Of a stretch of DNA of 64,000 bases, positions 35,090-37,597 are shown in pieces (within the stretch, counting starts at the first letter, position 1; each line of letters starts with the position of its first letter). This stretch comes from an uncultured Gammaproteobacteria bacterium (GTDB lineage Bacteria > Pseudomonadota > Gammaproteobacteria > Eutrophobiales > Eutrophobiaceae). A program made the position numbers and the translations under genes. The notes beneath the pieces were generated by a model that saw only the letters and a list, made by a program, of their open reading frames with translations, was not told the DNA's origin and did not search any database. Location: assembly GCA_938084745.1 (NCBI GenBank), contig CALKEZ010000001.1, forward strand, positions 1 to 64,000. The letters run 5' to 3'.

Positions 35090-36169
35090 TTAAGTACGCC
35101 CCGTTAATGTCGTGTCATCACTCTCATGCGTCGGCCAGACATTGATCAAGGCTTTGACCAGAGTTGCTAATGGAATAGCAAAGAACACACCCCAAAAACC
35201 CCATAAGCCACCAAACACCAGTATCGCAACGATGATCGCGACCGGATGCAGGTTGACCGCTTCCGAAAACAGAATAGGCACCAGAACGTTACCATCAAGA
35301 AACTGGATGACCAGATAGGAGAACATTAGCCAGGTGAAATCGGAGCTAATACCCCATTGAAAATAGGCCACAAAGGCGACCGGTAAAGTCACGACAGCCG
35401 CACCTATATAAGGTATTAAAACCGACAGACCGACCAGCATCGCCAGTAGCGAGGCATAATTAAGACCGAGAATAACAAAAAGAATATACGAGACGGCGCC
35501 GACAATAATGATCTCATTGAATTTGCCGCGGACATAGTTACCAATTTGCGCGTCCATCTCTGTCCAGATCTCATTCACCAGCCGTCTTTCCTTTGGTAGA
35601 AACCGCCCCAACCAATCCAGAATGATGCTTTTGTCTTTCAGAAAAAAGAAGATCATTAACGGTACCAGTACCAGATAAACAAGAACCGTAATAATTGCCG
35701 GAATTGACGCAACAGATAACGAAAGAACACTGCGCCCAAGCTCGCTAAAGCCCTGGCGGATTGTGATAATGAGTTGGCTTATATATTCTTCAGAAATAAA
35801 TTCAGGGTATTGTCCGGGTAAGCGCAATAACAGATCCTGTCCATTATTAATCATGTCCGGCACTTCCTGAAAAAACTGACTCACCTGCTTTGATAGTAAT
35901 GGCATCAATCCAAACAAAATAAACAACATGAAAGCAACAAATAAGAGGTAAACCAGGCTCACCGCCCAAAGTCGTGAAAACCGTTTTCCTTCCAGTTTTA
36001 AAACCGCGCCTTCGAGTAAATAGGCAATGATAAGTGCTGCCAACAAGGGCGCTAACATTTTGCCCATGGTTAGCAAGATCGCAGCGCCGAGGAATAACAA
36101 GACGACTAATAATGCCGCTTGCGGATCAGTAAAGTAGCGTCGATACCATGAACTAATAAAGTCAAACAT
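35090..36169 (-). CDS. perM: PerM / AI-2E family membrane transporter
   Basis: 359 residues with about seven to eight hydrophobic spans. The family core GLNYASLLAMLVGLSVLIPYIGAAVVTLPVA and FLDGNVLVPILFSEAVNLHPVAIIVAILVFGGLWGFWGVFFAIPLATLVKALI (in sections) is well kept. Members export autoinducer-2 or act as ion antiporters; the function here cannot be told. Opening FDFISSWYRRYFTDPQAALL is typical of the PerM group. A predicted small RNA ends about 110 bases upstream on the same strand. Confidence 0.9.
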   Translation of the reverse strand: MFDFISSWYRRYFTDPQAALLVVLLFLGAAILLTMGKMLAPLLAALIIAYLLEGAVLKLEGKRFSRLWAVSLVYLLFVAFMLFILFGLMPLLSKQVSQFFQEVPDMINNGQDLLLRLPGQYPEFISEEYISQLIITIRQGFSELGRSVLSLSVASIPAIITVLVYLVLVPLMIFFFLKDKSIILDWLGRFLPKERRLVNEIWTEMDAQIGNYVRGKFNEIIIVGAVSYILFVILGLNYASLLAMLVGLSVLIPYIGAAVVTLPVAFVAYFQWGISSDFTWLMFSYLVIQFLDGNVLVPILFSEAVNLHPVAIIVAILVFGGLWGFWGVFFAIPLATLVKALINVWPTHESDDTTLTGRT

Positions 36170-36280
36170 GTGTTACATCGTGTTCAATTATAATTTGAAT
36201 CATCATAGCGGTATCTTTCATCGACAGCGAGCAGATAGCATAATTATGTATCTAAACCATGAAAACTTAAGGGACAGTGC

Positions 36281-36367
36281 AAAAAAAAAAGGGCGCCGGA
36301 GGGGGTGGCACCCTTTAAAAATACAACAAAACTGCTGAGGAGGAAAACAAAACCTAACTATTTCTCA
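36281..36367 (-). ncRNA. Predicted sigma-54-dependent small RNA
   Basis: Predicted start 12 bases after the -12 GC, near 36366-36367; end at the T10 tract. About 87 bases. The 3' terminator pairs AAAGGGTGCC with GGCGCCCTTT over ten base pairs in RNA (one U-G), around loop ACCCCCTCC. On the opposite strand the same spot is a C-A mismatch and no T run follows, so the minus strand is the coding one. The upstream body is U-rich and holds a second CCTCC (TTTTCCTCCTCAG). The two anti-Shine-Dalgarno-like motifs suggest pairing with mRNA leaders. No open frame of note. Expression is not shown. Confidence 0.55.
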
Positions 36368-36378
36368 GTAGTTATAAA

Positions 36379-36394
36379 GCAGTAGTTGTGCCAA
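36379..36394 (-). promoter_or_regulatory. Sigma-54 promoter of the predicted sRNA
   Basis: Reading the minus strand: TTGGCAC (GG at 36392-36391), then CTGC (GC at 36380-36379), with the strict ten bases between GG and GC. TGGCAC is a full match to the -24 element; the -12 CTGCTT differs at one base from TTGCWT. Confidence 0.65.
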
Positions 36395-36456
36395 CCTTGA
36401 TTAGTACCGATATTCAATGACTTAGACAAAACCTGACAGATACATGTTATATAATT

Positions 36457-36493
36457 GCACCATGATCGTTTATTTTTAGGACATAAATGGTGC
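36457..36493. promoter_or_regulatory. Inverted GCACCAT / ATGGTGC half-sites, possible NtrC-type enhancer
   Basis: GCACCAT and ATGGTGC face each other with 23 bases between. Each resembles half of the NtrC site (TGCACCA ... TGGTGCA, normally about five bases apart). The pair lies about 90-125 bases upstream of the predicted sRNA start, where an enhancer is expected. Spacing is wrong for a single dimer, so two degraded sites or a hairpin are alternatives. Confidence 0.35.
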
Positions 36494-36544
36494 GTTGCAA
36501 AAAAAAATGTCCCTCATCAGTGAATCTGGCTAATATCAGGCAAT

Positions 36545-37597
36545 ATGGATCAAACACAGTTATCAAGTCAGATAAAATCCTGGGGTATCGCCTTAGGCTT
36601 TCAGCAAGTGGGTATTACTACAACCTCTCTCGAGGAAGATGAAACACACCTGCTTAACTGGCTAAATCAGGGACGGCACGGCGAGATGGCGTATATGCAA
36701 CGACATGGCAACAAACGCAGCCGTCCCGGGGATCTGGTAGCCGGTACTATCAGCGTGATCTCGGTAAGAATGGATTACCTGCCGCCATCCAGCAAACACC
36801 CTGGACAAGTGCTTAACAATAATAAGCTCGGCTATGTTTCTCGCTACGCGATGGGGCGTGATTATCACAAACTCATTCGCCACCGCTTACAAAAGCTCGC
36901 AACTAAAATAGAAAAGCAGTACGGCGAATTTGGTTATCGTTGTTTTGTCGACAGTGCGCCGGTGCTGGAAAAAGCACTGGCACGCAATGCCGGCTTGGGA
37001 TGGATAGGCAAACACAGCAATCTCATCAACCCTAAAGCCGGATCATGGTTTTTTCTGGGCGAAATATATACTGATTTACCACTCGAAATTGATACGCCAT
37101 TTACAGAACAGCATTGTGGCACCTGCAATGCCTGTATCGACATATGCCCTACACAGGCAATAGTCGGTCCCATGCAAGTTGATGCACGTCGTTGTATTTC
37201 TTATTTGACGATTGAATTACGTAGTTCCATCCCGGAGGAATTTCGAAAGATGATCGGCAACCGTGTCTATGGCTGTGATGATTGTCAATTGATCTGTCCC
37301 TGGAACAAATTTGCCAAAAATACCGAGGAAGATGATTTTCGTGTGCGCAATGGCCTGGACGCACCAACGCTGGTTGACTTGTTTGCCTGGACAGAAACAG
37401 ATTTTTTGAAAAATACTGAAGGATCTGCTATCCGTCGGATAGGTTATGAATGTTGGTCGCGAAATATTGCTGTGGGCTTGGGTAACGCGCCCAATAGTGA
37501 TGAGACTATTAACGCCTTGCGCTTACGGCAGAACGATCCCTCGGCTATGGTGCGTGAACATGTGGCATGGGCGTTGGCACAGCATGCCTTAAATTAA
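36545..37597 (+). CDS. queG: Epoxyqueuosine reductase QueG
   Basis: 350 residues. Last step of queuosine synthesis in tRNA, using cobalamin and two [4Fe-4S] clusters. Catalytic Asp near 136 in CFVDSAPVLEKALARNAGLGWIGKHSNL. Cluster cysteines: CGTCNACIDICP (191, 194, 197, 201), then Cys217, and GCDDCQLICPWN (244, 247, 251). The C-terminal HEAT-like stretch is present. Usually next to tsaE/nnr; here it stands alone. Confidence 0.95.
   Translation: MDQTQLSSQIKSWGIALGFQQVGITTTSLEEDETHLLNWLNQGRHGEMAYMQRHGNKRSRPGDLVAGTISVISVRMDYLPPSSKHPGQVLNNNKLGYVSRYAMGRDYHKLIRHRLQKLATKIEKQYGEFGYRCFVDSAPVLEKALARNAGLGWIGKHSNLINPKAGSWFFLGEIYTDLPLEIDTPFTEQHCGTCNACIDICPTQAIVGPMQVDARRCISYLTIELRSSIPEEFRKMIGNRVYGCDDCQLICPWNKFAKNTEEDDFRVRNGLDAPTLVDLFAWTETDFLKNTEGSAIRRIGYECWSRNIAVGLGNAPNSDETINALRLRQNDPSAMVREHVAWALAQHALN

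Follow-up and report, generated by a model that had tools for sequence, protein, structure and literature searches.

A conserved putative NtrC/sigma-54-activated anti-Shine-Dalgarno small RNA gene between queG and perM in an uncultured gammaproteobacterial order

The intergenic segment between queG and perM in the window, by which we mean the whole stretch of 64,000 nucleotides of DNA analysed here, probably holds a free-standing gene for an anti-Shine-Dalgarno small RNA (sRNA), activated by NtrC and sigma-54, that would serve as a repressing arm of the nitrogen response. The host belongs to an uncultured gammaproteobacterial order. Comparison with related sequences establishes the unit, its conservation, the form of its promoter, the boxes upstream and the pyrimidine motif within it. 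The first-pass annotation had suggested a sigma-54-driven sRNA with anti-Shine-Dalgarno loops at this position, and the comparison of relatives supports that reading. NtrC as the likely activator is an addition of ours, as the enhancer boxes had been missed by the author of that annotation.

On the minus strand, the spacing from GG to GC in TTGGCACAACTACTGC fits a -24/-12 element, as had been claimed, and the features around it are collected in Table 1. CCTCC is read twice on the same strand (36343-36339 and 36302-36298), both copies at the kind of place where they had been described and one of them in the terminator loop. The ten pairs of the terminator stem include one G-U, which on the plus strand appears as an A-C mismatch, and therefore all ten pairs can form on the minus strand alone; the U-tail and this pair are compatible with the minus strand only, so that the strand proposed in the first-pass annotation holds. 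The run of ten T's is also present as described, but three of them lie in the stem and the free U-tail is about seven long.

Table 1. Features of the proposed sRNA unit and its surroundings in the window
Feature	Position	Strand	Basis or comparison
NtrC-type box A, CGCAC-N7-GTCCT, left half-site intact	36478..36494	-	Relatives: TGCAC-N7-GTGCN at -97 to -100 from TTGG
NtrC-type box B, TAAAC-N7-GTGCA (right half TGGTGCA), 8/10 consensus positions	36456..36472	-	Relatives: -77 to -79
Conserved TAAGTCATTGAAT box in the enhancer-promoter interval, IHF-like	36412..36424	-	Pattern in 12/15 loci
Sigma-54 promoter, -24/-12, TTGGCACAACTACTGC	36379..36394	-	Sequence; comparison of loci
Predicted sRNA, about 86 nt	36281..36366	-	Start inferred from the -12 element
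Anti-Shine-Dalgarno motif UCCUCCUC	36337..36344	-	Sequence; motif comparison
Small hairpin CAGCA-GUUU-UGUUG	36324..36337	-	Fold prediction
U-rich UAUUUUU before the terminator, putative Hfq-type site	36317..36323	-	Invariant in seven genomes
Terminator stem-loop, ten pairs	36288..36316	-	Sequence, fold; compensatory changes in relatives
Stem arms AAAGGGTGCC and GGCGCCCTTT	36316-36307; 36297-36288	-	Direct reading
Terminator loop ACCCCCTCC (RNA ACCCCCUCC), second CCUCC	36298..36306	-	Identical in 6/7 core genomes
T10 run, three T in the stem	36281..36290	-	Direct reading
TATGAT, likely sigma-70 -10 of perM itself	36202..36207	-	Inferred; similar sequence in sRNA-less loci, e.g. L109, L126
perM-like AI-2E family transporter, neighbour	35090..36169	-	Same strand as the unit
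queG epoxyqueuosine reductase, divergent neighbour	36545..37597	+	Opposite strand to the unit

The promoter match is not significant on its own, since TGGCACN5TTGC with at most one mismatch occurs seven times in the window and 5.3 +/- 2.4 occurrences are expected. The pattern TGGYAY-N6-TGC matches twice in the 64 kb, and of these two matches the one at 36379-36394 alone has a strong stem and a T-run within 135 bases. The fold of the predicted RNA was better than that of 198 of 200 shuffled sequences (z -3.0). It is conservation, and not the promoter match by itself, that is the decisive evidence for the predicted unit.

Conservation was followed in 53 genomes of the family, the one family by which the order is represented, including 12 of the genus (G000 being the window's own assembly). 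A DNA search gave matches in 8 of 58 genomes, own included, of which seven were in the genus and one elsewhere in the family (L008 in G027, which looks like chance), and in none of 21 genomes of other families did the sRNA segment match. A covariance model of the sRNA (R1), built from the window and six more of its seven top-matching genomes, reached E <= 0.05 in 13 of the 53 family genomes and E <= 2.2e-17 in seven; these seven, own included, are among the 12 genus genomes and are the source genomes of the model. Two further genus genomes gave a weaker match, again at the queG-perM locus, and thus the first-pass expectation that relatives should keep the -24/-12 element and the stem is borne out in the genus. 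Another R1 match (L017 in G020) has no -24/-12 element and was judged by eye to be chance, as was L008.

A search with perM matched 37 of the 53 genomes, and in the 30 returned loci that were read, the queG-perM junction has the unit in 15 (14 with the full promoter, one degenerate), a decayed copy in one and no unit in 14, genus members G002 and G005 among the latter. The unit is carried by nine genomes of the genus (G000, G001, G003, G004, G006-G010) and, extending the conservation to other genera, by six more (G016, G017, G022, G024, G030, G035), with the degenerate unit in G030, where one G of the -24 is lost and the terminator stem is unclear. The decayed copy (L015, L111), upstream of perM in G011, has TTGACAC...CTAT in place of the -24/-12 element and a ruined terminator; this genome of 1.6 Mb retains ntrC. 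In G010 (L107) the terminator and perM are separated by some 150 additional bases containing inverted repeats, and the sRNA is intact. In a set of 80 perM loci taken from named genomes, R1 found the unit in three (L022, L024, L025; apparently genomes already counted), and scanning the whole set by pattern gave no additional unit. Matches in the plasmid collection fell within the queG/perM coding sequence only, with no sRNA.

In the final 40 nt ahead of the T-run (36329-36290) identity to the window is 0.85-0.98 in the seven core genomes, which represent seven species, compared to 0.91 at the start of perM and 0.39-0.54 just 3' of the stem. The terminator stems covary, as 96 of 98 cells are paired in 14 loci and both-sided changes were seen in nine cells and in five of the seven pairs; G030 was left out of these counts for its unclear stem, and the arms were aligned by hand because MAFFT misaligned those of the subfamilies. 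Beyond the motifs the RNA sequence diverges strongly between subfamilies, and in relatives outside the core a 5' hairpin GAUAGUC/GACUAUC stands where the core has CAGCA/UGUUG. RNA bodies of about three types thus share one promoter design. A promoter properly spaced from an independent terminator, with both conserved, points to a free-standing sRNA gene of sigma-54 type.

Within 130 bases upstream of the promoter, a box agreeing with TGCAC-N7-GTGCA in at least 8 of 10 positions was found in 14 of the 15 loci, and where two boxes are present they start 20-22 bp apart, at -97 to -100 and -77 to -79 from TTGG. Such predicted boxes at enhancer distance would be consistent with membership in the NtrC regulon. 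Their summed best score was 123, compared to a shuffle mean of 93 and a maximum of 103 (1000 shuffles), a statistic inflated by the relatedness of the loci, and the shuffle values of single loci were weak (0.002-0.108 in 14 loci). The boxes of the window itself are only half-perfect, with 7 and 8 of 10 positions. At -29/-30, 12 of 15 loci have [CT]A[AT]NNNNTTGA[AT][AT], and the TAAGTCATTGAAT box in the window is IHF-like. For E. coli, the NtrC consensus is TGCACCAnnnTGGTGCA (PMC8743547). In the genus, the glnK promoters of 6 of the 12 genomes (G003, G006, G008, G009, G010, G011) have a sigma-54 element together with a 9-10/10 box, and the window's genome has one glnK copy with a sigma-54-type TTGGCATAGATGCTGC and a GCACC half-site, truncated upstream by the contig end. 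The glnK promoters of G001, G004 and G005 (all with ntrC) and of G002 did not fit the sigma-54/box pattern.

An ntrC gene was over the cut-off in 45 and rpoN was matched in 48 of the 53 family genomes; within the genus G000 and G002 are without ntrC. In G000, which is 87% complete, rpoN was unmatched and no ntrC was over the cut-off. As the NtrC model still has five weaker matches (E <= 1e-100) in this assembly, both absences are probably assembly gaps, and they are a caveat for the model in this species. G002 (99% complete) has neither NtrC over the cut-off nor the unit, while ntrC is present without the unit in G005 and in other genera at queG-perM, and together with the decayed copy in G011. 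Proximity of ntrBC to the unit, at about 7 kb, was seen only in G007. In that genome the surroundings of perM and the sRNA (L162, G007:C4:56000-69700) have ntrB-ntrC and a glutamine synthetase, presumably of eukaryote type judging from its sequence, at no more than about 8 kb from the unit, and also include a Ser/Thr kinase, in an arrangement that is not found in the window.

Some other enhancer-binding protein, such as the LuxO-like type that serves Qrr, could activate the same sigma-54 sRNA, since most genomes have several further NtrC-like activators, the window's own boxes are half-sites and a second unit (below) has no NtrC box. However, boxes of the same TGCAC-N7-GTGCA type in the glnK promoters of the genus and the fixed distances argue for NtrC, and the LuxO motif, TTGCA-N3-TGCAA, does not describe the boxes, which makes another activator rather unlikely in our view.

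The unit shares its strand with perM and its terminator precedes the start of perM by some 110 bases, as could be expected of a sigma-54-driven leader in which a regulated terminator attenuates perM and no free RNA is formed. We give this explanation a low probability, because a TATGAT-type sequence precedes perM both where the unit is present and where it is absent, which suggests that perM is transcribed from a promoter of its own, and because the extra bases in G010 separate the unit from perM. Additionally, a non-systematic look at the computed fold gave no alternative anti-terminator pairing, and the C-rich loop is conserved past the needs of termination. A conserved intergenic terminator beside a chance -24/-12 element, with no RNA of its own, would be in line with the chance-level promoter match, but it is very improbable, as promoter, boxes and motif are kept together at fixed spacing and no known gene ends at the segment: queG is divergent and perM heads away, so no known gene end here needs a terminator. 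A short protein-coding message can practically be dismissed, as open frames of 9-23 codons are found in 14 of the 15 sequences but neither the frame nor the start nor the peptide is kept among them, one sequence is without any, and no conserved ORF was found among the 15 RNAs compared.

For the preferred reading, an sRNA gene activated by NtrC and sigma-54, we propose that under nitrogen limitation phosphorylated NtrC would bind both boxes, which lie some 60-100 bp ahead of the -24/-12 element, and, perhaps assisted by an IHF-like bend, open the sigma-54 polymerase complex to produce an RNA of about 86 nt. This RNA would contain UCCUCCUC in single-stranded form along with a small hairpin, a U-rich stretch of Hfq type and a terminator with a ACCCCCUCC loop, and together with Hfq one or both of the pyrimidine motifs would pair with purine-rich ribosome-binding sites and block translation. 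We infer that the gene is transcribed with NtrC as its activator and that the RNA binds Hfq and pairs with target messages.

YCCUC occurs in all 15 RNAs compared to a shuffle mean of 4.7 and a maximum of 10 (1000 shuffles), a figure that is not a probability as the sequences are related, and in six of the seven core genomes one CCUCC lies in a single-stranded region and another in the loop of the terminator, a loop that is identical in those six. The earlier anti-Shine-Dalgarno idea gains support from this persistence in diverged RNAs and from the second sigma-54-type unit, which shares the motif. Hfq was over the cut-off in 49 of the 53 family genomes, this one included, and with the U-rich site and the U-tail of the terminator this suggests an Hfq-dependent sRNA, its binding being predicted from sequence features.

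Matches to the target pattern GGAGGGG-N2-12-ATG, searched in the 12 genus genomes with the reversed pattern as a control, exceeded the control in nine. From the list 20 regions were chosen and read, all eight of G000 and 12 recurrent-looking ones, and the recurrent gene among them was nrdA, which has GGAGGGGUAAAUG or close variants of it (G000, G007 and G010 by reading; other genomes by the short string alone). Since G004 and G005 share the string and their RNA is without that loop or absent, nrdA is a candidate target only. It ranked second of 61 by duplex energy, which was not used as evidence, as nrdA had been pre-selected by the pattern and the model permits long interior loops. The ntrB and ntrC leaders of G007 paired weakly with the sRNA by duplex energies. 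The site by the start of nrdA, the gene for the class I ribonucleotide reductase alpha subunit, is an unusually strong GGAGGGG in three genus genomes (L141, L153, L155).

A second R1 match in the window's genome (G000:C17) revealed another sigma-54-type unit, sRNA-2, with folE2 on one side and, on the other, mazG preceded by a gene for a small protein (names from reading the proteins). It is kept in four genus genomes, G000, G003, G004 and G005 (L136, L137, L138, L139), with promoters of TGGCATA type (TGGTGTA in G005), a hairpin in which the stem varies and the CUCCUC/CCCCC loop is constant, and a terminator. R1 matches three of the four loci, with 34.7, 31.3 and 19.8 bits, and no NtrC box was found upstream of sRNA-2. 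A model of sRNA-2 (R2), the consensus structure of which is poor, gave no further convincing unit in a search of 63 sources. Weak R2 matches (20-26 bits) with terminator-like sequence were seen upstream of glnK copies (L174:1150-1261, L172:1203-1298, L171:1204-1296). Tentatively, the order might use a set of unlinked sigma-54-driven anti-Shine-Dalgarno sRNAs, with sRNA-1 (queG-perM) under NtrC and sRNA-2, with its CUCCUCCCCCCCC loop, under another enhancer-binding protein. In such a set the C-rich loops would act as conserved seeds, the loop of the terminator included in the case of sRNA-1, and would form a starvation-controlled brake on the translation of mRNAs that have strong ribosome-binding sites, nrdA for example; as a whole we consider this possible, though somewhat doubtful.

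If the proposed function is true, nitrogen starvation would reach translation directly via a generic mimic of ribosome sites, and a similar solution would exist in alphaproteobacteria with a different promoter. The terminator loop as a possible pairing site, together with the second, unlinked unit, makes the idea testable with reporters.

Qrr, GlmY/GlmZ and CrcZ are sigma-54-driven sRNAs, and no threshold match to them came up among the Rfam families scanned in the window. In the same scan two tRNAs alone reached the threshold and no other RNA family did. Alpha-r14 (RF02344) scored 17.6 bits against a threshold of 58.8 and suhB/mmgR (RF00519) 17.8 bits against 41, so far under threshold that the sRNA is filed in neither family. 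In the literature, with subscription papers mostly outside the search, no report of an sRNA at perM/queG was found, and a search for NtrC-dependent sRNAs gave the GlnZ paper alone. GlnZ, a nitrogen sRNA of enterobacteria, is cut from the glnA 3'UTR, unlike the free-standing gene proposed here. NrsZ of Pseudomonas is (PMC8395346, section 2.9), like the proposed gene, a free-standing sRNA under NtrB/C and RpoN that responds to nitrogen limitation, but it is about 226 nt long, processed, adjoins ntrC and activates rhlA. The sRNA described here is set apart from NrsZ by its description, being about 86 nt, located at the queG-perM junction and not beside ntrC, and having anti-Shine-Dalgarno motifs. 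MmgR, a short sRNA induced by nitrogen depletion (PMC9049629) and positively affected by NtrC according to a title in the references of PMC9170634, is alphaproteobacterial, unlike the gammaproteobacterial sRNA here. In NfeR1/alpha-r14 of Sinorhizobium and relatives, CCUCCUCCC anti-Shine-Dalgarno motifs, the proposed sites of pairing in that family, lie in unpaired parts of hairpins; there is a link to NtrC, and NfeR1 pairs with the translation initiation region of ntrB (PMC10746234). The same text describes a sigma-70 promoter repressed by NtrC, independence of Hfq and three hairpins all with the motif, in which NfeR1 differs from the sRNA proposed here. Among the sRNAs compared, NtrC/sigma-54 control and anti-Shine-Dalgarno pairing are thus each known, but in different sRNAs, and here they would be combined in one gene.
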